From positions 1-23,472 of the forward strand of contig JAEOSH010000032.1 in assembly GCA_016840465.1 (NCBI GenBank): 23,472 bases of DNA. The letters run 5' to 3'. Below the pieces are notes generated by a model, which worked only from the letters and a program-made list of their open reading frames with translations, was not told where the DNA came from and made no database searches. Within the stretch, counting starts at the first letter, position 1; each line of letters starts with the position of its first letter. Both the position numbers and the translations under genes were made by a program. Below are positions 5,957 to 21,548 of the stretch, in pieces. This stretch comes from Candidatus Baldrarchaeum yapensis. Lineage in GTDB: Archaea > Asgardarchaeota > Baldrarchaeia > Baldrarchaeales > Baldrarchaeaceae.

Positions 5957-7135
5957 TCACGCCTCGTGCACGAAACTCCATTTATCTCGCTCACTGTAAA
6001 TCTTGCGGAGTATCTCTAGGGCCAACTCCTCCGGCAAACTCAGAAATAAACGCGCCAGATGCTTGCAAAACCTTCTCTCCACCGCGGTCCGCGACCAGTC
6101 AGCGCAGTTATGCACTATTCTCCTCTCCTTAACGTCCACAATTATCTTGTAGTCCCTGATCTGCGCCTTCACCATATCCCTGTCCGCCCTCAAAATGTTA
6201 ATATCCCTGTCGCTTATCCTACGTGCCCTCGCAAGTCTCTTCCAGTCGATGAAACTCGAAAGTAGGGACTCCAGGTTCGCGGGAACCACCTCTCCCGTAA
6301 CTGTCATCTGAACGGGCGCCTCCTCTCTACAGCCCGCCACTCCCTTCTCCATCGTTTCCAGCATCCTCCTCTCAACTTCCGCCTGGTATCCATTCTGCAT
6401 ACCAAGCAAACGGAGAAGTTGAAGCGCGTTCAGCGCCGCATAACCGTAGAAGTGATTGTTAAACAGGCAGTAAAGCTCCGCAACCCTCGACATCAGGTCT
6501 CTGACCCTCGGAACCCACTCTTGCAACTCCTCTTCCTTATAACGATAATTGTACCACGGGTGCCTCCCGCGGCCATGCCACCTTATATAAGCGATGTCCG
6601 ACGTCACCTCTATGATCGCTGGTAGGAGGGGCTCATCCACAATCACGTACGCCACCCCGTAGTCTCTCAGCAGATCAAATACCTCCCCACAGAGCCAAGA
6701 CTCCTCCCGAAACTCCACGGCGTACTCAAAGCCGGAGGGGAGAATTTCGAAGAACTTCTTGAGCAGGGGGGCGCTCTTCCTCAGAGAGGGGGGTAACTGC
6801 AAAAGTAGGGGTCCCAACTTCCCATCATCACGAAGCGGTCTCATCAATTCTATGAATTTCTCGAGAGACCTTCTGTTCTCCACGCTCGCCTCGAGTTTCC
6901 TCTTATGGGTTATTTCCCTTGGCACCTTGGCGGTGAATTTGAACCCCGCGGGCGCGCTGCGCTGCCACCCTCTCACCAGCGCTGCGGTCGGGTAGCTGTA
7001 GAACGTCGAGTTTATCTCAGTTGTGTTGAAAACCTTCGTGTAGAAGGAGAACATGCGGTCCTCGGACGGGTAAAATATCCCGACCCACTCCTTGTATGAC
7101 CATCCGCTCGTTCCGACCCGTATCGCACCACTCAA
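5957..7135 (-). CDS. DUF72 family protein with C-terminal SWIM-like zinc finger
   Basis: The N-terminal 240 residues carry the DUF72 (YecE-like TIM-barrel) signature: IRVGTSGWSYKEWVG, then NTTEINSTFYSYP, FKFTAKVPREITH, LLLQLPPS, YAVEFREESW, and the late motifs IRWHGR and CLFNNHFYGYA. About 80 linking residues follow, then a SWIM-like finger near the C-terminus with Cys in IVHNC and FCKH; the usual second cysteine of CxCxnCxH is Asp here. I start at TTG 7135, a few residues before the barrel, because the 29 residues of the longest reading (from 7222) have no place in the family and a TATA-like element fits the later start; GTG 7141 is an alternative. DUF72 function is unsettled; the finger suggests nucleic-acid or protein binding. 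Confidence 0.8.
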   Translation of the reverse strand: MSGAIRVGTSGWSYKEWVGIFYPSEDRMFSFYTKVFNTTEINSTFYSYPTAALVRGWQRSAPAGFKFTAKVPREITHKRKLEASVENRRSLEKFIELMRPLRDDGKLGPLLLQLPPSLRKSAPLLKKFFEILPSGFEYAVEFREESWLCGEVFDLLRDYGVAYVIVDEPLLPAIIEVTSDIAYIRWHGRGRHPWYNYRYKEEELQEWVPRVRDLMSRVAELYCLFNNHFYGYAALNALQLLRLLGMQNGYQAEVERRMLETMEKGVAGCREEAPVQMTVTGEVVPANLESLLSSFIDWKRLARARRISDRDINILRADRDMVKAQIRDYKIIVDVKERRIVHNCADWSRTAVERRFCKHLARLFLSLPEELALEILRKIYSERDKWSFVHEA

Positions 7136-7280
7136 CTGCACGCACCAAAATGGAAGTCTTTTCCGTAAATTGAGTATTGGGGTTGAGAAATTAAACAATT
7201 GGGTCTCAACATCGTAATACAAAAATACTCATTAGCATCTAGGGGAATGCCAGTACGAACCCGTGCCGGGAGGTAAAAGG

Positions 7281-7631
7281 ATGAAGGCATGGGAAATAAG
7301 CGAACTCCTTAAGGAGCAGGGCTACCGGTTGCTCGATATTTACAGGACGAAAAACGCGGACATACTGAGGGTGCAGAATATCTCCACCGGTGAGGTCTTT
7401 AAGGTGCGAATTTCGGGCTTTAAGGAATCGGTAACCCCTGATCAACTGCTGGAACTCCTCAAAAAGCAGAGGATAAAATTGGAGGACGACAAGAAGGCGT
7501 GGCTCGAGAGAATTAAGAAAAAGATGAAAAAGGTCAGAATAGTCGGAAGGAAAGAAGAAAGGAAGAAGGAGGAAAAAGCGGAAGAGGTTGAGAGGAAAGA
7601 GGAGGAAAAAGAGGCGGGCGAGGAATCATAG
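7281..7631 (+). CDS. Small protein with highly charged C-terminal helix
   Basis: ATG 7281 follows GGGAGGT by seven bases, which makes it a better start than the GTG at 7263. The 116-residue product has a compact N-terminal domain of about 60 residues (helix WEISELLKEQGYRLLDI, then a beta hairpin with VQNISTGEVFKVRI) followed by an unbroken Lys/Glu/Arg stretch of about 55 residues that is likely a single helix or disordered. The N-terminal part may bind RNA or protein; no catalytic motif is seen. It is divergent from the DUF72 gene and its stop overlaps the end of the minus-strand operon by six bases. Confidence 0.7.
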   Translation: MKAWEISELLKEQGYRLLDIYRTKNADILRVQNISTGEVFKVRISGFKESVTPDQLLELLKKQRIKLEDDKKAWLERIKKKMKKVRIVGRKEERKKEEKAEEVERKEEEKEAGEES

Positions 7632-8006
7632 CCACGCGTCTATCACATTTATCGGAACTGCGCGCAACACTATGGCGTACTCCCCATTGCTTATCGCAAC
7701 GCGGTTTCCATGGCCAAGAACCCAGAAAATGTTTCTCCCGAGAACCTTTTCCGCCCTCCTCACAAGATCGTACCCCACCGCGAGCCCATCCCTCAGCAGA
7801 ACAACATACTCCTTTCCGTCAATCTTAACCCTCGCGCTTTCACCTCTCCCCACAAACCTGATTCCCCCGCGCTTCAGCAATGCGACAACCTCCTTATGAG
7901 GCATTAATATGGCGTCTTCTCGAAGTGAGTAGATCCCGCCGTTTGCGCATTTCACCGGCGCGAATATTCTTCGAAACCTCTCAACACACCTGATATTCTC
8001 TCGCAT
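7626..8006 (-). CDS. Hypothetical 126-residue protein, last gene of the nitrogenase-like operon
   Basis: The ATG at 8006 overlaps the stop of the NifK/BchB-like gene in a TGATG arrangement, so translation is coupled to it; a GTG one codon earlier is also possible. The product is mostly beta-strand (FVGRGESARVKIDGKEYVVLLRDG; FWVLGHGNRVAISNGEYAIVLRAV), consistent with a small barrel, with C7 and C20 near the N-terminus. It is not recognised. Its position suggests a role as an accessory, assembly or electron-transfer partner of the reductase, but this is inference from location only. Confidence 0.7.
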   Translation of the reverse strand: MRENIRCVERFRRIFAPVKCANGGIYSLREDAILMPHKEVVALLKRGGIRFVGRGESARVKIDGKEYVVLLRDGLAVGYDLVRRAEKVLGRNIFWVLGHGNRVAISNGEYAIVLRAVPINVIDAWL

Positions 8007-9544
8007 CACTTCATCCCTACCCTCATTGCCTCCAGCACTGCTTCCTCTACGTCCTTTACGGTCACCTTCCTTCCCCTAACCCTCTCACGAAGTATTCTCT
8101 CAATGGCAAATCTCACACGTGACCTTATGAAGTGAGGTACTCTTGCCAGCACGCCGTTCAGCCGCTCTAACGCCTCTTCCTCATACATTAGGCCTTCCTC
8201 CGACCGGATATCCTCTCGTGGATGGCTCCGCTTGTACGCATACACAAACTTGACGGTTTCCTCCCACACCCTGTGGAGAAGATAGGAGACCCCACGGATC
8301 CCCCTGAACGGCGCATCTAGGTATCGACTTGAGAAGTACCTCGCCGGTTCACTTGCTGGTATGAAACTACCAATACCGGCCTCCTGCGAAGCCAAGTACT
8401 CCGTGAATCCACCAAATACCATGAACGGGGACGCGCTCTTCAGGGAGTCGACTATCTGCTCCTTCCCCGGCATGACTAGAACCTTAGTGCCACCAAGTTC
8501 CCGTTCTCTGAAGAACCCTACAAGCGCTTCATGCATGCCGTTCTTTATTCCAATGACCGCAAGTGACATCCATAGATCATCCGAGAGAACCCTCGAGAGC
8601 CCATAGGCCAGCGTGTTCGATCCGAAAACCGCAACCGGGCTGTCCGCAATAGTGAACCCCGAAATGTCCATGTCATCTATGACACTCGCGCCCCAAACCC
8701 TCATTTCCCGAGCCAAGAACTCCTCCACGCGTTTCGAAATACTAGGGAAGTACTCCTTCAACCCTTCGAGAAACTCCATCGTTCCCTCGATGCCGAACGG
8801 CACCTCGGTGTAATAGGCGATGCCGAACTCCTTTTCCAGAAAGCGTGCAGCACTTTCTCCAAAGTCGTAAGGATACATTAGTATCGTGAGATCCGCATGG
8901 GGTAGATTTCTGAAATCCTCGATGCCCGCATTCGCAGGGACTATTGCGTTTATGCGCAGATCCACGCCTTTAAGGAGCCTCAAGGTCTCCAGCAGGTCGG
9001 CTCTCCAGTTGAATATCCCCTTTGTTGGCCCAATTATGTTAACACTCGGCTGTTTTCCGTCACCACCTCCACTAGCCTTTTGATCGCAGAACTCCCGTGT
9101 CAGCACATAAAGAGCCTTATCTATTCCGTCATAAAACGTATCACGGAGGGTGTTCGCATAAATGGGCACCACCGGAACCTCCACATCGCACCTCAGGCCC
9201 TCGACCTCGCACTGGAGTATATCCTCACTGATGAGCAGTTCGGTTACGTTAGTCGTAGTCACAACTAAAAGCTCGGGGTTGTAGTTCTTTACCGCCTCTT
9301 TCACGGCCCTCCTCAGTCTATCAAGCCCCCCATGCGCAACGTCAGTCGCCAGCAGGCTTGAAGTAAAAATGTGGCACCCCTGCTTTTCCGCAATCACAAA
9401 CTCGGAGACCGCGTAGTTTGAGCATCCCGACGGACTGTGAATCACGGGAATTGCCCTCTTCATCGATAGTACCACATCACAGATCCCCTGGAAACTGGAC
9501 GATATTACCTCCTCAGAATACAAGCTCCGGCTCACCGATACCAT
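8006..9544 (-). CDS. NifK/BchB-like subunit of a nitrogenase-like reductase, with PCP_red-like C-terminus
   Basis: The 512-residue protein belongs to nitrogenase component 1 type oxidoreductases. The N-terminal signature AIPVIHSPSGCSNYA places C41 where NifK has a P-cluster cysteine and BchB has its cluster-ligating Asp36 (HAPQGD). The residue expected to be cysteine in the STTC.sEliGdD motif is Asn99 (TTTNVTELLISED), and the first NifK cysteine is missing, so only one canonical ligand remains; C22 and C57 are extra. The last 60 residues (about 453-512), with ALERL, ARVPHFIRSRVR, AIERILRE and VTVKDVEEAV, closely follow the PCP_red domain at the C-terminus of BchB/ChlB, and the overall length also fits BchB. 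I chose ATG 9544 (GAGGGGG just upstream); GTG 9535 is an alternative. It overlaps the NifD-like gene by 32 bases. Confidence 0.8.
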   Translation of the reverse strand: MVSVSRSLYSEEVISSSFQGICDVVLSMKRAIPVIHSPSGCSNYAVSEFVIAEKQGCHIFTSSLLATDVAHGGLDRLRRAVKEAVKNYNPELLVVTTTNVTELLISEDILQCEVEGLRCDVEVPVVPIYANTLRDTFYDGIDKALYVLTREFCDQKASGGGDGKQPSVNIIGPTKGIFNWRADLLETLRLLKGVDLRINAIVPANAGIEDFRNLPHADLTILMYPYDFGESAARFLEKEFGIAYYTEVPFGIEGTMEFLEGLKEYFPSISKRVEEFLAREMRVWGASVIDDMDISGFTIADSPVAVFGSNTLAYGLSRVLSDDLWMSLAVIGIKNGMHEALVGFFRERELGGTKVLVMPGKEQIVDSLKSASPFMVFGGFTEYLASQEAGIGSFIPASEPARYFSSRYLDAPFRGIRGVSYLLHRVWEETVKFVYAYKRSHPREDIRSEEGLMYEEEALERLNGVLARVPHFIRSRVRFAIERILRERVRGRKVTVKDVEEAVLEAMRVGMK

Positions 9545-10802
9545 CCCCCTCGAACTTATATTCCAAGAAGGGATCACAAACCAGGTTGAATCTCCTCATA
9601 AAATCACGGAACCTCCTAACCTTCCCATCCAGCTTCCTGACAAAGTCTCTACCCGATTTTATTACACCAAGAAATCCGGGCACGTCCATATTTGCGATGG
9701 AAATCCTCGAAAAGAACCATGCGCCCATGTCGATTGCGAGCGATCCCATGATCCAGTTGCCGATCACGAAATCGAACTCCTCACCAGATACCCTTTTAAT
9801 CGTCTCGTACACGCTCCTCTCTTGATGGAACTCCCCACCGTTCTCCTCTATGAACGATACGTTCTCCCTCGCCAGTGGGGGAGCATACGACGTGAAAACA
9901 ACCGTCTCCATTCCTAGAGATACTGCTATCGACGCAAGGTTCACCTCCCTGCCCAGACTCGACGCTATCAGCACTTTTCTCCCAGACAACTTATCCTTCA
10001 GTTTCTCAACCTCATGCTCCCACCTGTCGAACCTCGTATCTACCTTAACACCCGTAACATCGGAAACCCTCTCGACCGCGAGCCTCGTTGGAGCAGTTCC
10101 ATATGGAAGAACATCCACGTAGGGGATCCCAAATCTCCTCATGATCTCCTTCAGCGCCTCCTCCGCAAAGACGTGCAGTGGTATGTTTACTCCGGCAAGA
10201 GGTGCCCTAATGATTTGATCTATTGGTGAGCCCTCGGATGACACGATGGCGGAATTCAACTTCATCGGTTTAAGAATCTCGGACATGTGGACCCTCCCGT
10301 GGAGCGTGGCATATCCCAATATGTTGAATCGGGTTGCTTCCGCCCCCTCCTGCGCGTCCATTAGGTCAATAAGCGACTTCAGCGCCTCTCCAGCCCCCAT
10401 GTACTCAGCCCTGCAGTTATATCCGGCCTTCACAACAATGACGGGAACTCCCGTCTCTTCGGATAGTTGCTCCGCTACTGACATCAGATCCTCGTTTATT
10501 GTGAGAGACGTGCATCCCTCAATTATTGCCACGGCCTTGGGCCTCTTTCTCTCGATTAACTGCCTAATTGCCTCGTATACCTTATCCACCGCGCCGAATA
10601 TAGCCTCCCTTTCATTAAACACCGTCCCCGGAGTGTAAAGAGGGGATCCCAGACGTGCGACTGAGATGTGACAACGCAGGTTTGCAACACAGTCGCGTGC
10701 CGCGTGTATGTAAACCAGCAATCCGTTTACCTTTGACAGAAAGAATGTCGCATAGAAGGTGGAGCACATACCCTCGGGTTGAGGCTCAAAATATCCTCTC
10801 AT
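9513..10802 (-). CDS. NifD/BchN-like subunit of a nitrogenase-like reductase
   Basis: The 429-residue protein is the alpha-type subunit of a nitrogenase-like component 1. It has three cysteines with the spacing of BchN/NifD cluster ligands: C13 (PEGMCSTF), C38 (HAARDC) and C97 (IIEGCTSLTINEDL), that is 25 and 59 residues apart; BchN, from memory, has 25 and 61. Between them lies the family block GTVFNEREAIFGAVDKVYEAI. Later Rossmann-like domains include VPVIVVKAGYNC and KVLIASSLGREVNLASIAVSLGMETVVFTSY. Known relatives are BchN (protochlorophyllide reduction), BchY, CfbD (coenzyme F430) and NifD; residues around a FeMo-cofactor could not be recognised, so nitrogen fixation is unlikely. Its ATG overlaps the NifH-like stop by four bases (ATGA). 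Confidence 0.82.
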   Translation of the reverse strand: MRGYFEPQPEGMCSTFYATFFLSKVNGLLVYIHAARDCVANLRCHISVARLGSPLYTPGTVFNEREAIFGAVDKVYEAIRQLIERKRPKAVAIIEGCTSLTINEDLMSVAEQLSEETGVPVIVVKAGYNCRAEYMGAGEALKSLIDLMDAQEGAEATRFNILGYATLHGRVHMSEILKPMKLNSAIVSSEGSPIDQIIRAPLAGVNIPLHVFAEEALKEIMRRFGIPYVDVLPYGTAPTRLAVERVSDVTGVKVDTRFDRWEHEVEKLKDKLSGRKVLIASSLGREVNLASIAVSLGMETVVFTSYAPPLARENVSFIEENGGEFHQERSVYETIKRVSGEEFDFVIGNWIMGSLAIDMGAWFFSRISIANMDVPGFLGVIKSGRDFVRKLDGKVRRFRDFMRRFNLVCDPFLEYKFEGDGIGEPELVF

Positions 10803-11692
10803 ACCACCTCGACCCCCGCGTACGTGAACCTCAAAAGATCTCCATATGGAATCGGGGTGGGTACCACCTTCAGGTTATTCGAAAGGACCTTTTCCGCGAG
10901 TTCCCTGAAGATCCTCACCGCATTAGAGTCAGGGAATGCTTCGAGAACGGTTTTGCCCAGCTTATCCGCCTCCAGAACCTCAGGCATTCTGGGCAAGATT
11001 CCTATGACGTTGGCGCCCATCAGAGATGCAAACTCCTCTATTATCTCCCTCTCCCCAGGCACGCCCCGCATGTTGCCTATCAATCCCCCGAGCGCAACCC
11101 CATGCCTACTATACCTTCTTATTGCCGCACATAGGTTGTTTGCCGCATACAGTGACATGAACTCTCCCGATGTTACAATGTAAACCTCACGGGCGAACCC
11201 TCTCTGCATGGGCTGTGCAAAGCCCCCGCAGACGACATCTCCTAGGATGTCATAGATCACCACATCGATCTTCAGCTCCTTGAAAACGTCCTTTGCCCTC
11301 AGGAACTCAAGCGCCGTTATTACGGCTCTTCCTCCACAACCCACGCCCGGCTCGGGCCCACCGCTTTCGGCACAAAAGACCCCGGCAAATCCCTCCACTA
11401 TCACCTCGTTCAGATCCACCCTGTCGAAGTCCATGTCCACTTCGCGCAACTTGTCCAGGATTGTCGGGATATGGTTGCTACCGGTTAGTAGCCGAGTGCT
11501 GTCCCTTTTGGGATCACACCCCACTTGGAGTACTCGGAGCCCCCTTAATGCGAACGCCGCAGACAGGTTGCACGCTATTGTCGACTTTCCGATACCCCCT
11601 TTCCCGTAAATTGCAATCGCCCTTGGCTCTTTCTCCTCAAACCTCACGGGTTTGATTCTCCTTCTGAGAATAACACATGGGGACTCACACAT
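10799..11692 (-). CDS. NifH/BchL-like iron protein (ATP-dependent reductase)
   Basis: The 297-residue product is a nitrogenase-reductase family iron protein. It has the deviant P-loop YGKGGIGKSTIACNLS (GKGGIGKS at 30-37), the switch region VGCDPKRDSTRLL, and both 4Fe-4S ligands of the homodimer: C119 in EPGVGCGGR and C155 in DILGDVVCGGFA. Arg122 matches the ADP-ribosylated Arg of NifH. It would pass electrons with ATP hydrolysis to the D/K-like complex encoded next. ATG 11692 is chosen since a perfect GGAGGTGAT lies four bases upstream, inside the end of the HerA-like gene, which it overlaps by eight bases; the longer reading from 11728 is rejected. The 25 residues before the first strand, with CxxxC (C2, C6) and a basic run, are longer than in NifH. 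Confidence 0.85.
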   Translation of the reverse strand: MCESPCVILRRRIKPVRFEEKEPRAIAIYGKGGIGKSTIACNLSAAFALRGLRVLQVGCDPKRDSTRLLTGSNHIPTILDKLREVDMDFDRVDLNEVIVEGFAGVFCAESGGPEPGVGCGGRAVITALEFLRAKDVFKELKIDVVIYDILGDVVCGGFAQPMQRGFAREVYIVTSGEFMSLYAANNLCAAIRRYSRHGVALGGLIGNMRGVPGEREIIEEFASLMGANVIGILPRMPEVLEADKLGKTVLEAFPDSNAVRIFRELAEKVLSNNLKVVPTPIPYGDLLRFTYAGVEVV

Positions 11693-13253
11693 CTCCATCA
11701 CCTCCCGACTTTTTACCCTTATACTCATAATACGAGTGAAGAGCGCGAGAACCCTTCTCGGTGAGATAGTACACCCTCCTGACCAGCTTCCCTATCTTCT
11801 GCTCAGTCGGGTGGACGTAACCCTCCTCCTCCATCTTCTGAATGAGGCGAGCACAATACGGAACGTCAAGGTCGAGAGTTGTCGCAATGTTGAACAGAGA
11901 TAGGCCGGGGTACTCCTTAATGAGATTTAGAACCTCCGCGGCGCTGTCCGCATCTGCTCCAAAGTCCATTAATAGAAGGGGAACGGGGGGATGCCCGGAG
12001 CAACTTTGCACGACGACCTCCGGGAACAAGTACGTGACCCGAGAAAGTATCTGTTCGTCGGTGGATGCTGGGATCTCCGCTAGGGATCTGTCCACCCTAA
12101 CCAAAAACGGTTCGGAGAAACCATATCTGAACACCACTGCATGATACGGCTCCAAGTTCTTAAGATAGGACATCTGGTACAGCCTTCTTCTGCCCTCGGG
12201 CGCATGAATTCCTATTGCGAATTCCCTCAGGTTCAGCACGTCCGCAACTATCCTCTGCTCGATCCTCGTGCCCACCTTAAATGATATACGGTTCCCTATC
12301 TTTGCAAAGAGTGAGGGGTGGACAAGTCCCGGTGACGAGGTTGTCAGGAGAACAAAATGCCCTCTGGAACGGAGTTCATCCAGATATCCTAGGAGTTCGA
12401 CTGCGCTCTCATGTCTGGTGCCCCTTGAAAACAAATGGTGACACTCGTCCAGCAACAAGACGATATTCTCACGAAGACCCGAGGCGAGGATTTTAATCAT
12501 GAATATCACCTCTACGAGACTTAAAACCTTGGATGAAAGTTTAGGAACCTCTATAACGACGCATCGCTCGGCGAGTTCTCTGATGCCGATTGTCTGCTCC
12601 CGGCAAAACATTCTAGCAAGAGGAGGTACCGTTAAAACTTGGAGTTCTTTTTCTAATGCTGAGATGAGGTATGCAACCCTCGGACCCTCGGCTCCGGATA
12701 GCGATGACAGTCTCTCCCTCAATTGGAGGAGAGTCGGCGTGGGATCCTCCTCATATGCATCATATAGAATTTTGAGAAAGATCCTCCACGCATCGGGGCT
12801 CATCTGAAGCACCGCCGCAAAGATATTCGCAACATGCAGTGCATAGTCCTCCCTTTTTGCGCCTTCGGTGTCGAGGGGGTTTAACACGAACGTTTCGCCC
12901 AAACGCAGGACCACAACCTCGGAATTCAGTCCGTGGAGCCTTCTGTACTCGGCATCCGACGTTACCACTATGAACCTGTAACCTCGGTCATGAAGCCCTG
13001 AAAGAATCTTCGCGCAGAGAGCATACCTTTCGATGGAGGTTCCCGCCATTACTAGCGTTCCGTGTCTCAATTCCTCAAGTGTAAAGCCCGCCGCCCCACA
13101 TGGTTCAAAGTTCTCTGTTTCTATGATCTCGCCTACCGCAACGTCGCATGAGACGTGAGAGGGGGTGACATATTCTACCGGAAGTTCCGGCGGCATCATC
13201 TTCACAGAGAACGTCGGAATTTGAAAGAACCTCAAAACCTCATCTCCGCTCAT
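11685..13253 (-). CDS. HerA-like ATPase with degenerate Walker A and C-terminal winged helix
   Basis: The 522-residue protein has the HerA/FtsK plan: an N-terminal part with a strand reaching HGTLVMAGT (64-72), the long insertion with LNPLD and a helical bundle (about 125-205), VVIEVPKLSS, the Walker B strand NIVLLLDECHHLF (D269, E270), ELRSRGHFVLLTTSSPG as the sensor/motif III region, and a C-terminal winged helix (about 430-510) ending in VRRVYYLTEKGSRAL. At the Walker A position HerA has GTTGSGKS; here it reads GTSIERYA, with the GK[ST] core gone, so ATP binding is in doubt. It starts at ATG 13253 in a TGATG overlap with the upstream membrane-protein gene. The winged helix suggests DNA binding; the pairing suggests it docks onto that membrane protein. 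Confidence 0.75.
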   Translation of the reverse strand: MSGDEVLRFFQIPTFSVKMMPPELPVEYVTPSHVSCDVAVGEIIETENFEPCGAAGFTLEELRHGTLVMAGTSIERYALCAKILSGLHDRGYRFIVVTSDAEYRRLHGLNSEVVVLRLGETFVLNPLDTEGAKREDYALHVANIFAAVLQMSPDAWRIFLKILYDAYEEDPTPTLLQLRERLSSLSGAEGPRVAYLISALEKELQVLTVPPLARMFCREQTIGIRELAERCVVIEVPKLSSKVLSLVEVIFMIKILASGLRENIVLLLDECHHLFSRGTRHESAVELLGYLDELRSRGHFVLLTTSSPGLVHPSLFAKIGNRISFKVGTRIEQRIVADVLNLREFAIGIHAPEGRRRLYQMSYLKNLEPYHAVVFRYGFSEPFLVRVDRSLAEIPASTDEQILSRVTYLFPEVVVQSCSGHPPVPLLLMDFGADADSAAEVLNLIKEYPGLSLFNIATTLDLDVPYCARLIQKMEEEGYVHPTEQKIGKLVRRVYYLTEKGSRALHSYYEYKGKKSGGDGDV

Positions 13254-14008
13254 CACGATCCCCCTTCTACCCCTCTGACCACGCATAACACCGCCTCCCT
13301 CAGTTCTTCACCACGCAAAACCCTCAACTTTGTGTGAGGGAAACCGCTCAGGAACAGGGACTTTATCTTTGAAACCCTCTCCCTGACCCTTTCCGCGCAC
13401 TCCACGAGACCTTTCTCCGAATTACCCGTTTCGTATCTGGTCAATAGAAGCATACGACATCTCCAGACGCCTCCGATGGATGTCAGCAAACTCTCCCTCG
13501 CCTCTGACATCTTTCTCTTCAGTTTCTCTTTGTACTCATCCGATAATTCGGGCTCCCTCAAAGCCTCCTCCGGGCTCAGCGGCTCCTGGATGAACACATA
13601 AACAAGTGGTATCCTCTCCGCATACGCGGACCTTATGAAAAATTCAAAGTTCCCCCGCACACCTATCGGTATCCTCTCAAGTTCCAGACCGCCCACAGCA
13701 ATTACTTTTGACCCCTGTCTGAAAAGTATCACATCCTCGATAATCTCCCCCTGCGGCATCCCGTCCGTACCGGAGATGGCAAACTTGCCACTCCTATCAT
13801 TGATTATGCTGTTAATGACGGATGCCGATAAGACGCCGAACAGTACACTTATTATAAGCGCGCTTGGACCCGGAAGCACATTCTCCAGCGCGTAAGACGC
13901 CAGGATGAACATCAGCAACCCTACCCATACACATACCAACCTGTAATTGGAAGAGCTCCCGCCACTATTCGGTTTGCGAATATGAATCCTACCCGCTACT
14001 CCTTCCAC
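13253..14008 (-). CDS. Two-pass membrane protein with soluble C-terminal domain
   Basis: The 251-residue product has two close hydrophobic segments (about 24-43 and 48-69) and then a roughly 180-residue soluble domain, predicted cytoplasmic. That domain includes NFEFFIRSAYAERIPLVYVF, a charged stretch with SPEEALREPELSDEYKEKL, GGVWRCRMLLLTRY, and a final VLRGEELREAVLCVV. This order (hydrophobic hairpin, then a strand-rich domain ending in a gel/reelr-type helix) is like the membrane-proximal part that precedes the motor in VirB4/CedB-type ATPases, here encoded apart from its HerA-like neighbour. The resemblance is by eye and weak. It starts at GTG 14008, overlaps the 99-residue gene by 20 bases, and shares one base with the HerA-like start. 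Confidence 0.65.
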   Translation of the reverse strand: MEGVAGRIHIRKPNSGGSSSNYRLVCVWVGLLMFILASYALENVLPGPSALIISVLFGVLSASVINSIINDRSGKFAISGTDGMPQGEIIEDVILFRQGSKVIAVGGLELERIPIGVRGNFEFFIRSAYAERIPLVYVFIQEPLSPEEALREPELSDEYKEKLKRKMSEARESLLTSIGGVWRCRMLLLTRYETGNSEKGLVECAERVRERVSKIKSLFLSGFPHTKLRVLRGEELREAVLCVVRGVEGGS

Positions 14009-14288
14009 CCGCCACCACCCCCACTAACACAACCATCATCAGGGAGAGAATCAGCGCGTTGACGGACAGCGATAGGAGAAGATCCGTGGATACGGTGGGC
14101 CGCACAAGTAGGTGCATGAAGTCTATGACCAGCACAAGCGCGATTAGCAAAGATGACTTGAGCGGACCGTACCTGCCTCTCGATCTAATTACCGTTATTA
14201 ACAGCCATGCGCTACCAAACAACCACAGATTCTCCAGCACGAACTTGAACAGCATCACATAAATTACGAGTTCCATGAAACTCGCCAT
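13989..14288 (-). CDS. Small three-pass membrane protein
   Basis: The 99-residue product is almost wholly hydrophobic, with segments at about 6-34 (one long or two short), 46-63 and 69-93, separated by the basic loop IRSRGRYGPLKS. No residue pattern identifies a transporter family. ATG 14288 follows GGAGGGG at suitable spacing inside the end of the preceding gene, with an overlap of 25 bases. Small multi-pass proteins accompany DNA-transfer and secretion ATPases, but no specific homology is claimed. Confidence 0.65.
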   Translation of the reverse strand: MASFMELVIYVMLFKFVLENLWLFGSAWLLITVIRSRGRYGPLKSSLLIALVLVIDFMHLLVRPTVSTDLLLSLSVNALILSLMMVVLVGVVAGGRSSG

Positions 14289-14662
14289 CCCATCCCCTCC
14301 TTCTCACAAGCGTGCGCCATCTCGCCCACTATCCACCTCAACAAGAGTTCAGACCTCGTGAAAATACGCACCCTGACGGCATTGTCACCTGCCGGGAGAA
14401 CTTTAACACGAACAGGATCGTTAGCTCTTCCATTCGTCACTCCGTCTGCACCCAAGTTTTTCACTACACTTTCGACAACGCCCCTCACCCTTTCCGCATC
14501 GGCTCCCCAGATGGTCAGTTCCGTCCTCCGATCGTAAACGCATATTTCGCTCAAAACATCATTAGGGCGCTTGGTACTTCCCCTGATCGATCTTACGATG
14601 AGTAAAAACATCACGGCGGAGTAAAGTGCAATTGTCAGGTTAATCGCGTCCACTTCCACCAC
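14264..14662 (-). CDS. One-pass membrane-anchored small protein
   Basis: The 132-residue product has one N-terminal hydrophobic segment (about 8-24) followed by basic residues (RSIRGSTKR), pointing to a cytoplasmic soluble domain of about 100 residues. That domain reads as strand-helix-strand repeats: ELTIWGADAERVRGVVESVV, PVRVKVLPAG, NAVRVRIFTRSELLLRWIVGEM. No family was recognised. GTG codons at 14662, 14659 and 14653 compete as starts. It overlaps the helicase stop by about 20 bases and the next membrane gene by 25 bases. Confidence 0.6.
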   Translation of the reverse strand: MVEVDAINLTIALYSAVMFLLIVRSIRGSTKRPNDVLSEICVYDRRTELTIWGADAERVRGVVESVVKNLGADGVTNGRANDPVRVKVLPAGDNAVRVRIFTRSELLLRWIVGEMAHACEKEGMGWRVSWNS

Positions 14663-16766
14663 TCAGCACCTCCAGCAGTTCTCCCGCAAGGTGAGAGGTG
14701 TTTAGATACCCGCACAGTTCGCTTATTGCTCTGAGGGCATGGAGGGACCACCTGATGTAATCTATGAGTTCTTCGAAGTCGCCGGGCGGAATCTCGAATC
14801 TCACCGGGATTTCCTCCACGCTTATTCTCCCTTCATAAACTTCCAGAAGTGCGGCATGGAGTTGCGGAGGTACTCTTCTGCCCTCCTCGGATAAGAAACC
14901 GCAGAATCTTCTGATGAAGTCATAAACGTCTCCGCTGAACCTGCTGGAAAGAGCGTGCATCGCAACCGCAGTGCGCGGTCTGAGGTACAATTTTATGACC
15001 AGCTCGCCGAACCTCGTGACCTCGAATGCGGTAATGTCGGCGTCCTCAATCTGCTTGACCAGGCCCCCACGCATTAGGAAGTCCAAAGCGCTCCCCATGC
15101 CCAGTCCATCAAGAACTATGCCGATGCGATCTCGAAGATTTTCTGCAACATACATTGCGAGGCCTACCAGATGCCTACACGGGGTTGTACGTCTCATCTT
15201 CGAGAACTCAGAGCACTCGCACCAGGCGCCGTTACGTGAAATCGTGCACATTCTCCCATTCACAATTCCCTCGATCCTCCTACCATCTGCCTTCGTGATC
15301 ACGACTTCTCCACTGATTTCGTGAGATTCGTCCCAGTCGAGGAACCTCGTTTTGCCCGTTAAGAGTATTTTCCTTGAAATCTCAATTGCGGGTCTCTTGC
15401 GCCCCCAAAGTGTGCTTCTAAGGAACTCCACCAGATCGTCGATTGTTGCGCCTTCCGAGTCGTATATTGCAACGAGGAGCAACTCCTCCATAAGGTCTCC
15501 GTTCTCCAGCTGGCTCTCCACATTCTCATACCTAGGAGTCTGCCGCCCATCACGGAACAGCACACTTCTGAGAAGTTCTCTCTCCTGATCGGTGTACACG
15601 AGTATGTAGGCATGTCCACTGCTGTCAAATCCGGGCCTCCCCGCCCTCCCCACTATTTGGAATATCGTGTTTGCGCCTAATCTCCGGTACTCCATCCCAT
15701 CCGGCGTGCGCCTCACTACCACCAAGTCCCGCAGAATCACATAGCGTGCGGGCATGTTTATTCCCGCCGAAAGGGTGGTGGTGCACACGAGAACCTTCAA
15801 TAGCCTTTTCCTGAACGCGAGTTCTATTGCCCTTCTCAAATTCAGAGAGAGGCCCGCGTGGTGAAAGCATACCCCGGAGGGGGCCACTCTGAAGGCCCTC
15901 CTTGCAAGGGAACTCCTATCTCCCCCCGTAGCATTATCCAGAATTTTGCGAATGCGCATTCCAACCTCATCGTCCACGTGGTCCTTTAGGATCTCGCCGA
16001 GTTTTTCGGCAAGACTCTCGGCATCCCTCCTCCTTGCAACGAATACCAGCACCTGTCCCTCCTCTGAACAGCGCTCCCTCAGAAATTCCTTAATGAAGGC
16101 ATTCTTTTGCCGCGTGACCGTGATGCTTATCTCGAGCGGCACCATCCTAGCATGCGACTCTATCAAGGCACAATTCAACCATGACGCTATCTCATGTGGG
16201 TTTCCGATACTTGCGCTCAGCGGAATCATCTGGATATCGTTTTTGCGGGCCCTGAGCCTAAGCCTTGTCAGTATGCCTTCCAGCCGTGGACCCCTTTCAG
16301 GGTCACTGAGCATGTGCACCTCATCGATGACCACCGTTCTCAGCATGTCGAGAACGGCTGGGATTTGCCTCGTCATGGAGTCGAACTTCTCGTAGGTCAG
16401 TATCATAACATCGGCGTCGAGGATGTCTGAGGGGAATCTGTAGAAATCTCCCGTCGACATCACTATCCTGAGCGAGCGCGTCCTGCAAATCTCAACCATA
16501 TCATCGTACTTCTCGTAGGCCACAGACTTCAATGGAACTATATACGCCGCCTTTCCCCCGCTCAGTGCGCTGTTTATACATGCAATCTCGCCCAGGAGCG
16601 ACTTGCCCGATGCGGACGGCGAACAAATCATGACGTTGCGTCCTCTAAATACTCCCAGTTTCACTGCCGTGGACTGCACCGCGTTGAACCCCATCACTCC
16701 CCTCGCTGTCAGTATTTCGGCAAGTTCCCCGTCTAATCCGTAATTTACCGCTTCCTTAACCCTCAC
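14640..16766 (-). CDS. Ski2/Hel308-like superfamily 2 helicase with inserted SWIM zinc finger
   Basis: The 708-residue protein has the full set of Ski2-like motifs: a Q-motif-like FNAVQSTAV, Walker A CSPSASGKS (about 49-56), TYEKFDS, DEVH (148-151), SAS (motif III), FHHAGLS, TTTLSAGINMPAR (motif V) and QIVGRAGRPG (370-379). After the second RecA fold it carries a SWIM finger with C516, C518, C530 and H532 (CxC-x11-CxH), then a helical C-terminal part resembling a shortened Hel308 ratchet domain. Relatives unwind DNA or RNA 3' to 5'. I choose GTG 16766, six bases after a perfect GGAGGTG, over GTG 16775. It overlaps the upstream membrane-protein gene by 11 bases, so helicase and membrane proteins are coupled. 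Confidence 0.85.
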   Translation of the reverse strand: MRVKEAVNYGLDGELAEILTARGVMGFNAVQSTAVKLGVFRGRNVMICSPSASGKSLLGEIACINSALSGGKAAYIVPLKSVAYEKYDDMVEICRTRSLRIVMSTGDFYRFPSDILDADVMILTYEKFDSMTRQIPAVLDMLRTVVIDEVHMLSDPERGPRLEGILTRLRLRARKNDIQMIPLSASIGNPHEIASWLNCALIESHARMVPLEISITVTRQKNAFIKEFLRERCSEEGQVLVFVARRRDAESLAEKLGEILKDHVDDEVGMRIRKILDNATGGDRSSLARRAFRVAPSGVCFHHAGLSLNLRRAIELAFRKRLLKVLVCTTTLSAGINMPARYVILRDLVVVRRTPDGMEYRRLGANTIFQIVGRAGRPGFDSSGHAYILVYTDQERELLRSVLFRDGRQTPRYENVESQLENGDLMEELLLVAIYDSEGATIDDLVEFLRSTLWGRKRPAIEISRKILLTGKTRFLDWDESHEISGEVVITKADGRRIEGIVNGRMCTISRNGAWCECSEFSKMRRTTPCRHLVGLAMYVAENLRDRIGIVLDGLGMGSALDFLMRGGLVKQIEDADITAFEVTRFGELVIKLYLRPRTAVAMHALSSRFSGDVYDFIRRFCGFLSEEGRRVPPQLHAALLEVYEGRISVEEIPVRFEIPPGDFEELIDYIRWSLHALRAISELCGYLNTSHLAGELLEVLSGGSGRD

Positions 16767-17631
16767 GTTCCGCACCTCCCCAAATCCTTAGAATGGATTG
16801 CAGTATGCTTTCTCCGATCCTTGCATATCTGCCGTTGGATTTTGCGAAGAGCAATTCTGAGAGTTTGCTTCCAGATCCGTGGCCGTCGGCCGCTCTCAAG
16901 AACATCACATGAAACTCGGAGTCCCGATCACATCTCATGAGCAGGAACGTGGAACTGGGGTGGGCGAGCATTTCTTCAACATCTATTGGCACCACTCGCA
17001 GGTTCATAAGATTATCCAAATCGATCTCCGCCTCGCTATAATCGGATCTGCCATCTACGATTTCCAGTATCATCTCCATTATTGTCGAAATATTCCGATT
17101 TCTATCGACATCTCGTATTAGGAGGGCCTTCGGCCGGGCGCATCCGTCATTCCTTATCAGCATCACTTCTGAGTTCAGCACTCTCGCGATCGAAAGAACC
17201 TCCTCTACGGAGGCTCTGGATTCTACCGGTATCACTAGCTTTCCGTGGTCTCCTCTCATCAAGATCGCAATTCCATTCCGTGCAATCAGTACTGTTTTCC
17301 TTCGGGACATCTCGTACACTATAACATACGCGACGGTGAGGACCAGGGGCAGGAGGATAAGCGGGTTTTCCCGTATGAGGAGGAACGTTATGTGAACGGA
17401 GAACAACAACATTATCAGCGCCGGTAGCCTGCGAGAAGATGCATACACGCTCGTTCCAAAGATCATCACCACATAGAATAGAATTATCGGAAGATGCGCG
17501 CTCCAAATTCCAAATAACGCCAGTCTTGTCAGCATAATAAGCGATACGATTCCCTCCTCCACCACCGACAGCAACCATAGGATGAAGACTGCCCCCAGCA
17601 TGTACCTGATGATCACGTCATTCGTCGCCAT
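16756..17631 (-). CDS. Multi-pass membrane protein with cytoplasmic domain
   Basis: The 291-residue product has four or five hydrophobic segments in its first 110 residues (about 9-44, 47-64, 70-87 and 91-107), then a basic YEMSRRK stop-transfer signal and a soluble domain of about 180 residues. The soluble part has repeated strand-rich units (TVLIARNGIAILMRG; EVMLIRNDG; TFLLMRCDRDSEFHVMFL) and no catalytic motif that I recognise. ATG 17631 lies six bases after GGGGGTG and is preferred over the GTG at 17640. It overlaps the RadB-like gene by 14 bases and the helicase gene by 11. Its plan (membrane bundle plus soluble domain) parallels the two-pass protein later in the operon. Confidence 0.7.
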   Translation of the reverse strand: MATNDVIIRYMLGAVFILWLLSVVEEGIVSLIMLTRLALFGIWSAHLPIILFYVVMIFGTSVYASSRRLPALIMLLFSVHITFLLIRENPLILLPLVLTVAYVIVYEMSRRKTVLIARNGIAILMRGDHGKLVIPVESRASVEEVLSIARVLNSEVMLIRNDGCARPKALLIRDVDRNRNISTIMEMILEIVDGRSDYSEAEIDLDNLMNLRVVPIDVEEMLAHPSSTFLLMRCDRDSEFHVMFLRAADGHGSGSKLSELLFAKSNGRYARIGESILQSILRIWGGAEREG

Positions 17632-18280
17632 TTTCGCCACCCCCTAACGAGTAATTTATCCGCACTCCCGCGCTCCTCCCCGATAATTTCTCAATGACCG
17701 CCACTCTATGACCTCCGGCCGTGGAATCCCTCTCTAAGCGTATGACCGTACGTGCCAGCTTCTTCAGGGGTAGTAACAATCTCTGGTGGTGCAACTCGGA
17801 GGAGTTGAATTGGGCCAGCGCGATAATTGAGGTTCCTCTCCTGAGCAACAGCACGAGTATGGGGATCATTTCCTCTAAAACTTTAAACGCAGCCTTGAAC
17901 CCGTACCGGTAAATATTCCACCTTATCAGTGAGGAAATCGTGTCTATCACTATCAGAATGCCCGAGCCGGATGCTGTGGAACGAATGCCATCGAGTATTG
18001 AGAGCAACCGTGAAACTTCCGGGTTTCCAGTTATGACTGTTATTCTTCTGAGCAATTCGGGATTCTTCATGAAGCGGCCACGCAGGGCGCGGGGATCCAA
18101 CTTCAAATCTACATCTAGGTACATGGTCCTGATGTTCATCCGTGCCGCATGTATCGCCATTCTAAGGGCAATCATCGTTTTCCCGGTTCCGGACTCCCCG
18201 TATATCATGCAGATCGACGGATGAGCTATCCCTCCGTCCAGAATCTCATCAAGTTCCGGAACTCCCGTGCTGAGGACCAT
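17618..18280 (-). CDS. RadB/KaiC-like RecA-fold ATPase
   Basis: The 220-residue protein is a minimal RecA core. It opens with STGVPELDEILDGGI, the typical RadB/KaiC lead-in, then Walker A GESGTGKT (28-35), the strand TMYLDVD, Walker B ILIVIDTISS (D113), and a sensor-like ALAQFN. It ends with antiparallel strands around RTVIRLERD and HRVAVIEKLSG, as in RadB. Its length equals that of archaeal RadB, but it lacks obvious RadA features such as an N-terminal helix-hairpin-helix domain. ATG 18280 starts one base after the previous stop; TTG or GTG codons 12-18 bases earlier are less likely. It probably works as an ATP switch or recombination-like factor within this operon, not as the housekeeping RadB. 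Confidence 0.8.
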   Translation of the reverse strand: MVLSTGVPELDEILDGGIAHPSICMIYGESGTGKTMIALRMAIHAARMNIRTMYLDVDLKLDPRALRGRFMKNPELLRRITVITGNPEVSRLLSILDGIRSTASGSGILIVIDTISSLIRWNIYRYGFKAAFKVLEEMIPILVLLLRRGTSIIALAQFNSSELHHQRLLLPLKKLARTVIRLERDSTAGGHRVAVIEKLSGRSAGVRINYSLGGGENGDE

Positions 18281-18281
18281 C

Positions 18282-21200
18282 CTAGCCGCCCACACCAAGC
18301 CTCCTCACCACTCCTACCAGTTTTCTCTTGAAGAGGATGGAAGAACTGGCGATTATCAGCGCGGGGGTTGCTATCACGGCAATCTCTATAACCTCCCAGT
18401 TCTGCTCAGTAGACGGTGCTTCTCTCTTCATTTCAGTGGTGTGGAGGGTTTCATTTCCAACCTCTTGTTCGGTACTCGACTCATTCGTCTGCGTAGTAAA
18501 GTTGCTCTCTGCTACCTCTCCGTTCTGCTCCGTTTGAGGGGTTTCCTCCCTCATCACTCGTACTGTTACGAGGGAGGACGTCGCGGGAAGAAACGGATGG
18601 GAAACCTTCACGAGAAACGTGTAATTTCCGGCATTTAAGTTGCGCAGCGGAATTGTCACCTGATATTTGCCAGGGGCGGTTTGCATTCCGCATGAGGATA
18701 TATTGTACCCGATTATTGATGCGTTGACCGTGCAGTCGCCGAGCAATAGACCGTTATACGTTACGGACACATTTAGCATGACATATTCCGTGCCATTGCC
18801 GCGAATACTTATCACTCCGTTGCCCTGTACCGTTATCGAAATTTCGGGAGGTAGTGCTGTGCTTGATGAGTTCTCAACGAGCGGAAGCACTCCCAAGGTT
18901 TTCAATGCCCTCACAACGATCATCAATTCGACCAGATCCCGCAGATCTGGGTTTCTCAGTCTGGAGAGACAGTAATATAAAGAGGCATTCAGTTTGACAA
19001 AGGACTCTCGAAGGAAGGACTCCTCCCGGGCGCGCGTGGAATTCAGCGTTGAAATTATTAGCACCTTCAGTGCAGATGTGAGGGGGTCTTGGCACCTGCA
19101 CGATACAACATATCTTTCGAGCGATGTGAGGTTCACGCCTCCCGCAACCCCTATTGTCATAATTATTTCTGTGGCGAAATACTCCGAGATCAGGGGTGAG
19201 GACAAAACTGGCGGGATCCACTCGCTCTCTGGGAATGCGCCCGTCTCGTTCTGGTGGGTTCTCAGGTATTCGAGGAGTAATCCGGTGAAGTTATAGAGGT
19301 AGTCGAAGAGCGCGTCCATCTCCACGCACGTGAGGACCGCCATTGTAGCGCTGTAGATCGTGACATATCTTTCATCGGCGGGCACGAATGTCCATTTTCT
19401 GGTACCGCCGGCCAGTTCTCCGTCGGTAACCCTACACCTTCGGATCTTTTCCATCAATTCATCCCTATATTCGAACTCCAGCAAGAGAATGTTGTAGGAC
19501 CTGATTCCGAAGAGTGCGGTCCCAACACTGGGACTTCCGAGGCCGGTGTCGATTGCAATATCAAAGGGCATCCTCATGAATCGGGTGCCGGAGGATGAGG
19601 AAGTCCCGAAGAACAGGCATATTGGGAAGTCCCTGAACCCGTCCCCGGACATGTATGTGTTCTTCAAGAACTCGGCAAGGGAAGTTTTGTTCACGGCATC
19701 CAGCATCCCAATATCGCTCAGAGTTTCGATCACAAAGTACGTCGTTGCAAGGGAACCCTCCAGTTTGCTATATGGGAGGAATCCCCCTTTTCCTCTCCAG
19801 CAGGACTCCAGGTACGACCTTACGGCTCCAATGTTCACCGCTGAGAGAACATTGTATGCGCGAAGGGCGAGAAGCGCCGCCGCGGTGTCGAATACGGTGG
19901 GAAATATTATGTCATCGGATGAGAATCCGCCGATCTCCGTCTGTCTCTCCATTATCCAATCGATAACTCTTGCTAGGAAGATCCTGTCCAGTATTTCCGA
20001 TATTTTGCTGTCGTTGAACCTCCGTAGCCTTTCGACGCAGAGGACGGCGTATGCGTTCTGATAAAGCGTATCATATGATGTGACGTTGAACAGTTCATCC
20101 AGCAGGTAGCAATCCACGAGCCATTCGGCCGTGGCTGAAAGGTTCACGATATCGAGTACATATTCGGGGCCCAGAACCTCCGATAGGGTCAGGAGGGTGT
20201 CTAGTGCGAGGAAGGACGACTCGAAGAATCGATACGCGTAGTAACCGTATGCGAACGATGGAATTCCCTCCTTGGGCAGAAAAGCACCATAGTATTCGGA
20301 CGATTCGTCGGAGACCTGCAACCTCTTTATATAGCTAACGACGGAAGCCGCCATCGTTCCGTTGACTTCACCGAGTATCATGAGCGCCTTTATGGCGGCC
20401 CATGTAGCCTTAACCTCCATGGTTCTATCTATCGTCGTTTCGTAGGCAAATTTTCCGGAGGTGCTGTTATATGCGGAGGAAAGGAAACATGCGACCTTGC
20501 TTTTATTTACTAAGTCGAGGGCGCCGAGCATTTTCAACAACATGATCACAAGGGCCGTTGTGAGAACCTTCGACTCTGCCGGGGGTTCCTGGTAAAAGGA
20601 GCCCTCATCGTCATGATATAGCGATAAAAGCCAGCTAACGGTGGCGTTCTTATCGATTAGGGAGGAGTTAATTCCGCAGGTCTCCATGCAGAGCCATCCA
20701 TAGAACGTAGATACTATGTCGGGTTCCGAGAGACAGGGGAAGCCTCCGCGCCCATGCCATTGATCTAACTGCAACTTTGCGAGAGATTGTGCCAGTAGGT
20801 CGATGATGGTTTGTTCTCTTAACCAGAACAGCGAATTTATGAGGAAATACTTCCCCTCAAGTGAAAGATCGCCGGGTTTTTCAACCCCCACCCACAGAAC
20901 CCTAACATCTCCTCTCAGCGACACGGCTGATGCCGCGAGCGTGGAGTTTTTCATTATAAGGATCGGAGGCGTGGTGTTATTCAGCAGATCGGAGGCATTC
21001 GCCACCACGCATTCGGACCTAGGATTAACGATGTGCATATGAGCTTTGGACCCGCATATGTCAAATGGTGCCCTGAATATCGAGAGGTTACGCGCGTAGG
21101 AGGGAATGTAGAGGGCGTCGGGGGCGGTTATGCGTAACGGGGAGGTTGAGGTTACGAGCAACGTTATGGATTCACCGAGAAGTAGGGTTGGGGCCGAGAT

Positions 21201-21518
21201 GTTAAGGGCTTCTAAACTTTGGGATAGAGGACGGGGGATCACAATAATGTTATCGGAGGAGGCGTATTCGGTGAGGTTCTCTGGACTCGTTATTAGTGAT
21301 GATATTCCAAACTCTGAGAAGAAGCGGGCCCATGTGGCCGCGTAAGGGTCGCTGGTATTCTCGGATAAGATTACAACTTCCGGTGCCCGGTTGTTTTCGA
21401 CCACCGCCCGCTGTGTTATACTGTTTGCGGGAGGGACTTCATTGGCAATAATGAGTATCAATATTAGAGAGATCACCGATATTACATGAAATTTAAACCG
21501 ATGTTTTACGGATTTCAT
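18282..21518 (-). CDS. Large secreted, C-terminally anchored protein with alpha/alpha-toroid-like repeats
   Basis: The 1078-residue product starts with a signal peptide (basic MKSVKHRFKF, then a hydrophobic stretch, likely cut near ANS). Residues of about 35-230 form an alpha/beta domain like the GATase-like/BatA-type fold preceding secreted repeats. About 240-900 is helical with repeated turns of the terpenoid cyclase/prenyltransferase beta-subunit kind: GRGGFPCLSE, EGSFYQE, SGKFAYE, IGGFSSDD, KGGFLPYS, TGAFPES. One or two Ig-like beta domains follow (about 905-1000), then a Thr/Glu/Asn/Gln-rich linker and a membrane helix at about 1043-1063 with a basic tail KRKLVGVVRR. Many N-x-S/T sequons fit an S-layer-side location. 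ATG 21518 has GGAGAG eight bases upstream. It is the first gene of the operon and may sense or bind something outside the cell; no enzyme residues were seen. Confidence 0.75.
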   Translation of the reverse strand: MKSVKHRFKFHVISVISLILILIIANEVPPANSITQRAVVENNRAPEVVILSENTSDPYAATWARFFSEFGISSLITSPENLTEYASSDNIIVIPRPLSQSLEALNISAPTLLLGESITLLVTSTSPLRITAPDALYIPSYARNLSIFRAPFDICGSKAHMHIVNPRSECVVANASDLLNNTTPPILIMKNSTLAASAVSLRGDVRVLWVGVEKPGDLSLEGKYFLINSLFWLREQTIIDLLAQSLAKLQLDQWHGRGGFPCLSEPDIVSTFYGWLCMETCGINSSLIDKNATVSWLLSLYHDDEGSFYQEPPAESKVLTTALVIMLLKMLGALDLVNKSKVACFLSSAYNSTSGKFAYETTIDRTMEVKATWAAIKALMILGEVNGTMAASVVSYIKRLQVSDESSEYYGAFLPKEGIPSFAYGYYAYRFFESSFLALDTLLTLSEVLGPEYVLDIVNLSATAEWLVDCYLLDELFNVTSYDTLYQNAYAVLCVERLRRFNDSKISEILDRIFLARVIDWIMERQTEIGGFSSDDIIFPTVFDTAAALLALRAYNVLSAVNIGAVRSYLESCWRGKGGFLPYSKLEGSLATTYFVIETLSDIGMLDAVNKTSLAEFLKNTYMSGDGFRDFPICLFFGTSSSSGTRFMRMPFDIAIDTGLGSPSVGTALFGIRSYNILLLEFEYRDELMEKIRRCRVTDGELAGGTRKWTFVPADERYVTIYSATMAVLTCVEMDALFDYLYNFTGLLLEYLRTHQNETGAFPESEWIPPVLSSPLISEYFATEIIMTIGVAGGVNLTSLERYVVSCRCQDPLTSALKVLIISTLNSTRAREESFLRESFVKLNASLYYCLSRLRNPDLRDLVELMIVVRALKTLGVLPLVENSSSTALPPEISITVQGNGVISIRGNGTEYVMLNVSVTYNGLLLGDCTVNASIIGYNISSCGMQTAPGKYQVTIPLRNLNAGNYTFLVKVSHPFLPATSSLVTVRVMREETPQTEQNGEVAESNFTTQTNESSTEQEVGNETLHTTEMKREAPSTEQNWEVIEIAVIATPALIIASSSILFKRKLVGVVRRLGVGG

Positions 21519-21548
21519 AATATACACTCTCCTGGGACGGTAATGCTT

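Follow-up and report, generated by a model that had tools for sequence, protein, structure and literature searches.

The window analysed here is the entire contig C57 (23,472 bp) of the Candidatus Baldrarchaeum yapensis genome G000 (2.27 Mb, 100 contigs, 96% complete). An open reading frame (ORF) check of the window found twelve minus-strand ORFs, g1 to g12, which run from 21518/21527 to 7626 and are taken as a conserved operon. This operon is composed of two modules: the front module A (g1–g8), a putative DNA-handling unit that includes what is best called a split VirB4, and the back module B (g9–g12), classed by its sequence as a chlorophyllide/protochlorophyllide-reductase-type enzyme. Four genomes of the order concerned, that of Candidatus Baldrarchaeota, were compared, namely G000, G001, G002 and G003. 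The twelve genes are as follows.

g1, 18282–21527, minus strand: secreted protein of 1081 amino acids (aa) with a hydrophobic N-terminal signal or anchor and a C-terminal transmembrane (TM) helix in the TM scan; start ATG 21518 or GTG 21527; predicted fold, prenyltransferase-type alpha/alpha toroid repeats (PF00432, 5.7e-24)
g2, 17618–18298, minus strand: RecA-superfamily (RadB/KaiC-like) ATPase (PF06745, 5.6e-11; TIGR02237, 9.2e-14) with an intact P-loop, GESGTGKT
g3, 16756–17640, minus strand: membrane protein with about 5 TM helices and a cytoplasmic domain (TM scan); homologues at the same position in G003 and G001
g4, 14640–16775, minus strand: Hel308-like superfamily 2 (SF2) helicase (PF00270, 7.4e-23; NF002654, 5.3e-97) with a SWIM zinc-finger insertion (C519-x-C...C-x-H) and an intact P-loop
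g5, 14264–14662, minus strand: 132 aa, a single N-terminal TM helix (TM scan); positional counterpart in G003 with 21% identity
g6, 13989–14288, minus strand: 99 aa, three hydrophobic helices (TM scan); positional counterparts in G003 and G001 with 20–24% identity
g7, 13253–14008, minus strand: two TM helices and a predicted VirB4 N-terminal-like domain (AlphaFold2 model; predicted local distance difference test score, pLDDT, 73)
g8, 11685–13286, minus strand: VirB4/HerA-type motor domain with a degenerate P-loop (AGTSIER) and a C-terminal winged helix (winged helix-turn-helix, PF13412, 6.1e-7)
g9, 10799–11728, minus strand: NifH-like ATP-dependent reductase (PF00142, 1.9e-96) with a P-loop and both [4Fe-4S] cysteines (C131, C167)
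g10, 9513–10802, minus strand: catalytic alpha-type subunit, BchN/BchY-like (PF00148, 3.7e-48), with cluster cysteines C13, C38 and C97
g11, 8006–9577, minus strand: catalytic beta-type subunit, BchZ/BchB-like (PF00148, 1.6e-55), with a C-terminal PCP_red-like domain (PF08369, 6.9e-4); numbered from GTG 9577, the likely start being ATG 9544
g12, 7626–8009, minus strand: soluble protein of 127 aa, the final operon gene in both families; no Pfam or NCBIfam match

An earlier sequence-only reading of this DNA had described twelve tightly coupled genes whose junctions overlap or, once, leave a one-base gap. All of these ORFs were found where it had placed them, and comparison of the candidate starts gave the same picture for all eleven junctions, with the order kept in a second family. 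The g1/g2 junction is a 1-base gap (ATG 18280) or an overlap of 14–17 bases. Further overlaps amount to 14–23 bases for g2/g3, 11–20 for g3/g4, 14–23 for g4/g5, 13–25 for g5/g6, 20 for g6/g7, 1–34 for g7/g8, 8–44 for g8/g9, 4 for g9/g10, 11–65 for g10/g11 (32 with ATG 9544), and 1–4 for g11/g12. Base composition is uniform and does not separate the front half from the back half. Promoter and terminator scans, which do not cover archaeal promoters, gave no excess over shuffled sequences.

Conservation of the operon within the order

The same gene order recurs in G003, the metagenome-assembled genome (MAG) 'Candidatus Baldrarchaeota archaeon Yap30.bin4.67', which belongs to the same order as the window genome and to a different family. 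Its contig C194 encodes g3-g4-g5-g6-g7-g8-g9-g10 with an extra gene between g9 and g10, and its contig C288 (JAEOSG010000175.1) encodes g10-g11-g12 (loci L011 and L097). The extra gene, absent from the window operon, specifies a PCP_red-like protein of 149 aa. The ends of the two contigs encode the same g10 stretch in slightly different versions, as expected from strain variants in the bin (contamination 9%). On mechanically assigned starts, the G003 junctions are overlaps of 4–65 bases with one 6-base gap, and g12 is followed by a HEPN/nucleotidyltransferase pair on the opposite strand. In G001, of the same genus as G003, the row g1-g2-g3-g4-g5-g6 is present up to the contig end (locus L072).

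Cross-family identity is 44% for g4, 31% for g7, 32% for g8, 63% for g9, 54% for g11, and 20–24% for g3, g5 and g6. The g1 homologue at the same place in G001 has 1337 aa and shares 27% identity over about 760 aa, with another homologue in genome G019, and a g12 homologue follows g11 in G003 (phmmer 2e-21, 32% identity). Since order and overlapping junctions persist in the second family despite such low identity, a chance arrangement is argued against. G002 (91% complete, 20 contigs) gave no g4 or g8 match and lacks g9 and g11 orthologues. At the front border, G001 carries two more genes before g1 in the same tight row (L072:8674-10454), encoding one protein with 4 TM helices, weakly matching an M50 peptidase, and one of 378 aa, where the window has a divergent gene.

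Module A across the Asgard phylum

Module A is a unit spread across the Asgard phylum, and outside this order it occurs without the reductase. Homologues of g8 were found in about 106 sampled phylum genomes, weak hits counted, against only 11 genomes outside the phylum. Of about 53 phylum genomes that gave a g8 hit, 35 have, by a count from coordinates, a g4 homologue near g8 on the same contig, mostly adjacent and within about 16 kb. In these relatives the neighbouring genes encode, among others, ATPases of the Rad51/RadA type and RadB-like ones, a nuclease (XPG/FEN1), an XPD-like helicase and additional membrane proteins. Hel308-type profiles match g4 with up to 326 bits over residues 16–464, and the SWIM zinc finger of its family is present in 22 of the 23 long Asgard homologue rows; more Hel308-like genes lie elsewhere in the genome of the window. 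No NurA family hit was obtained among g1–g12.

A split VirB4 without a P-loop

Most relatives carry g7 and g8 as a single fused gene, with g7 at the N-terminal end, whose product has about 770–970 aa or more. The PDB was searched with AlphaFold models of two proteins, a fused homologue (pLDDT 80) and the window g7 (pLDDT 73). For the fused homologue, the motor part matched VirB4 (4ag5, Z 29.1, 2.9 Å over 327 residues) ahead of HerA (Z 25.8). The leading ten Foldseek matches of g7 all belong to the R388 type IV secretion system, and nine of these chains are plainly VirB4/TrwK; with VIA, the values for g7 were Z 11.0 and 4.3 Å over 136 residues. On these model matches, the g7–g8 pair is best described as a split VirB4, with the TM helices and the N-terminal domain predicted in g7 and the motor fold in g8.

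The Walker A lysine is absent from this family: all 18 members are without a P-loop, and the motif reads AGTSIER in g8, GGTDEER in the G003 protein and GGSxxER elsewhere. For this reason g8, of HerA/VirB4 fold, probably does not hydrolyse ATP. The term 'HerA-like ATPase' in the sequence-only reading is thus borne out for the fold and probably not for the activity. The same reading had considered a DNA import or repair apparatus, an idea that gains for the front part from the VirB4-like fold and the Hel308, RecA, Rad51 and XPG partners, and that loses its expected motor, since g8 without a P-loop is unlikely to be the energising ATPase.

Module B, a putative ring reductase

An alpha/beta PF00148 pair together with a NifH-type ATPase in one gene set was found in the window and in G003. 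The closest solved structure to g9 in the PDB search is 9fmg_D (MarH, 4e-81). Its profile scores are 341 bits for nifH, 324 for CfbC, 232 for BchL and 193 for BchX, so g9 is not of the BchL/BchX type by this measure. Alignment of g10 with BchN/BchY and of g11 with BchB/BchZ places g10 C13, C38 and C97 and g11 C52 at the interface ligand positions, forming a 3+1 cysteine site that is conserved in G003. The g11 C52 aligns with a cysteine of BchZ and with BchB Asp36, the [4Fe-4S] ligand in structures of dark-operative protochlorophyllide oxidoreductase. In trees, g11 falls within the BchZ clade (support 98/97), and g10 groups with BchN/BchY with moderate support (84/93 and 73/84). The PCP_red tail of g11 scores 20 bits with PF08369, under its cut-off of 32.5.

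No NifB was found in G000, whose only match was a radical-SAM protein at 27.5 bits in a genome that is 96% complete, and this counts against a nitrogenase or methylthio-alkane-reductase cofactor. Among 227 phylum genomes, genes of the g9 type were found in this order only; for g11, a set of 392 genomes gave no orthologue outside the order. A contig scan with the g11 alignment returned only the G003 contig, and an earlier scan with g11 alone returned nothing.

A BchH-type chelatase was considered as a partner of module B, as G000 and G003 contain a subunit over the TIGR02025 cut-off and G001 and G002 do not. This candidate was rejected because the match is unspecific: the family occurs in 79 of 392 genomes and is widespread in reductase-less Asgards and other archaea. 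The subunits in question are BchH/CobN-type chelatases beside a ChlI/ChlD-type protein, an arrangement common in Asgards (L161:6947-12805 on G000:C12; L163:2441-8166 on G003:C149), and contig C58 of G000 carries another CobN-like set, accompanied by a BtuFCD-like transporter. A different nitrogenase-like row, with NflD-like, NifH-like and NifB-like radical-SAM proteins, is present in G002 (L098:8139-11062) and G001 (L099:2417-5199), its NflD-like proteins being related to the single-subunit NflD of other archaea. In another Asgard genome, G172, a NifH-like gene lies beside a CfbD-like protein and a CobB/CbiA-type amidotransferase (L100:7708-10970), resembling an F430-type (Cfb) cluster.

Interpretation and alternative explanations

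These results suggest, with a probability of about 0.5, that the operon encodes a membrane-anchored DNA-recombination or exchange module derived from a type IV secretion system, to which an order-specific ATP-dependent ring reductase has been appended, both in one transcription unit in this Asgard order. Module A would be a DNA-handling apparatus specific to Asgards, anchored in the membrane and descended from the type IV secretion/Ced lineage. As its motor site is degenerate, the VirB4-like subunit formed by g7 and g8 would most likely serve as a scaffold in the membrane or as a gate for DNA, and DNA remodelling and pairing would fall to the intact ATPases g4 and g2. The surface-exposed part would be g1, and g3, g5 and g6 would be membrane parts; the likely outcome would be DNA uptake, exchange or membrane-side recombinational repair. 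In module B, a g9 dimer would pass single electrons to a [4Fe-4S] cluster with C13, C38 and C97 of g10 and C52 of g11 as its ligands; a conjugated ring substrate, perhaps a tetrapyrrole, may be reduced in the g10–g11 cavity. Both the cluster chemistry and the substrate class are offered as what module B may do. The reductase would have been appended behind g8 before the split of the two families and retained since.

Several points weigh against this proposal. The DNA function of module A, including DNA transport, is one that it may have on sequence and model data. A VirB4 without a P-loop cannot drive translocation by itself; no channel of the VirB6/CedA kind and no pilin of the VirB2/CedA1 kind was identified, no dedicated test having been made, and the sole candidates are g3 (about 5 TM) and g6 (3 TM). 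For module B, an alternative grouping of g10 with NifE-type proteins is not rejected (approximately unbiased test, p-AU 0.35), and the best NCBIfam match of g10 is NifE. ALAD (HemB) did not turn up in any of the order's four genomes, which makes a de novo chlorophyll pathway unlikely and means that any tetrapyrrole substrate would need salvage. Moreover, the g8–g9 junction between the modules is visible in two MAGs only, both fragmented.

A serious competitor, somewhat short of an even chance, is mere co-transcription, in which an unrelated metabolic reductase sits behind a conserved DNA module and uses its promoter, the overlaps reflecting a compact genome style. Making a weaker claim on the link between the modules, it overlaps with the composite favoured here. 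It fits the roughly one hundred other phylum genomes in which module A occurs without module B, the coherent family logic that module B has of its own, and the uniform composition, which bears no mark of a special or recent fusion. Against it, all junctions including g8/g9 overlap in two families although g8 is 32% and g5/g6 are 20–24% identical, the borders outside g1–g12 differ between the families, and G002 lacks both modules. Two older operons fused, as the sequence-only reading had offered among its options, is the best supported of them, given module A without a nifH-like gene phylum-wide and a reductase only in this order. The parts, whose separation in relatives that reading had proposed to examine, do occur apart outside the order; inside it they are joined in both families with a visible g8–g9 junction. 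A functional link between A and B may exist.

That module A serves anti-virus defence, with a helicase, a HerA-fold protein and a membrane effector, is unlikely. Many HerA-fold proteins and SF2 helicases belong to defence systems, and PADLOC gave partial helicase and mad8-like matches, but these are mainly generic helicase scores, and the unit, found phylum-wide, has Rad51, XPG and XPD-like genes beside it and not SIR2/TIR effectors. Very unlikely is dedicated DNA import of the Ced/Ted kind with module B as a redox step, for instance one in which a cluster-based reduction would control or repair the DNA taken in. The VirB4 fold and the RecA and helicase partners would suit it, as would the HerA and ParA/MinD-family ATPases by the VirB4-like gene of Ted loci (PMC9905601). 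Contrarily, g9, which has both cluster cysteines, is a genuine NifH and no plain ParA/MinD, g10–g11 carry reductase-specific features, and g8 has no P-loop. We know of no precedent for a NifH/BchYZ-type enzyme acting on DNA. For the 'redox arm' of the sequence-only reading, no direct sign of action on DNA emerged, and participation of module B in DNA handling is highly improbable. Decidedly unlikely, too, is a nitrogenase-family reductase that is physically and functionally part of a type IV secretion-derived Asgard membrane DNA machine, a redox-coupled complex for DNA exchange or repair for which no counterpart has been described.

Under the composite reading, module A represents a candidate system for DNA exchange or membrane recombination, conserved throughout the archaeal phylum nearest to eukaryotes, and its split VirB4, with the P-loop lost, offers a clue that is concrete and can be tested. 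Module B, a putative BchZ/BchN-type reductase in a genome without ALAD, bears on the origin of chlorophyll-type reductases, and the conserved A–B junction makes a functional link testable.

Other genes in the window

Adjoining the operon end, 5957–7222 on the minus strand encodes a DUF72 protein whose C-terminal part bears a SWIM-like motif, C-x-x-W...C-x-H. Two adjacent convergent genes, at 3299–4573 (plus strand) and 4580–5905 (minus strand), are distant paralogues (24% identity, E 7e-25) without a Pfam match. Small retropepsin-like aspartyl-protease proteins (Asp_protease_2) are encoded at 23102–23470 and at L161:17508-17942, the window copy being cut by the contig end and scoring under the cut-off.

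Comparison with known systems

CedB and CedD of Sulfolobales are HerA/VirB4-like proteins required for DNA import, and their N-terminal domains superpose on parts of the VirB4 N-terminal domain (PMC11868833). The Ted loci of Thermoproteales place a VirB4-like ATPase gene beside HerA and ParA/MinD-family ATPases, in a paper that does not mention Asgards (PMC9905601). The g7–g8 pair resembles VirB4 and CedB/CedD in joining TM helices, a VirB4 N-terminal domain and a motor domain, and module A resembles Ced/Ted in having a HerA/VirB4-fold protein near recombination genes. By contrast, the Asgard family has lost the P-loop, is divided into two genes in the window and comes with no identified channel or pilin, and the score with the CedD profile NF053655 is only 21.7 against a cut-off of 600. 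Open-access full-text literature on Asgards with VirB4, HerA and DNA uptake yielded no Ced/Ted-like report, which is not proof of novelty. Compared with HerA-NurA, g8 has no NurA neighbour match in g1–g12 and no P-loop for an active HerA motor. The g4 protein shares its SF2 core with Hel308/HelQ, whereas its C-terminal half differs and bears the SWIM zinc finger.

Module B resembles BchXYZ and BchLNB in its two PF00148 subunits with a NifH-type ATPase, three alpha cysteines, one beta ligand position and a PCP_red-like C-terminus on the beta subunit. It differs in that g9 is NifH/Mar-like instead of BchL/BchX, the g10–BchN/Y link is weak, ALAD was not found in the host, no further Bch gene lies in the window, and scores are far under the equivalog cut-offs. 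With methylthio-alkane reductase and nitrogenase it shares a NifH-like partner nearest to MarH among solved structures, whereas G000 has no NifB and the subunits group with BchN/Y and BchZ, not with MarDK or VnfK. It is unlike CfbCD of F430 synthesis in having two catalytic subunits, with TIGR03282 at 33–34 bits against a cut-off of 268. Each half of the operon has known relatives, and the split pseudo-VirB4 and the combination of modules A and B appear to be undescribed.

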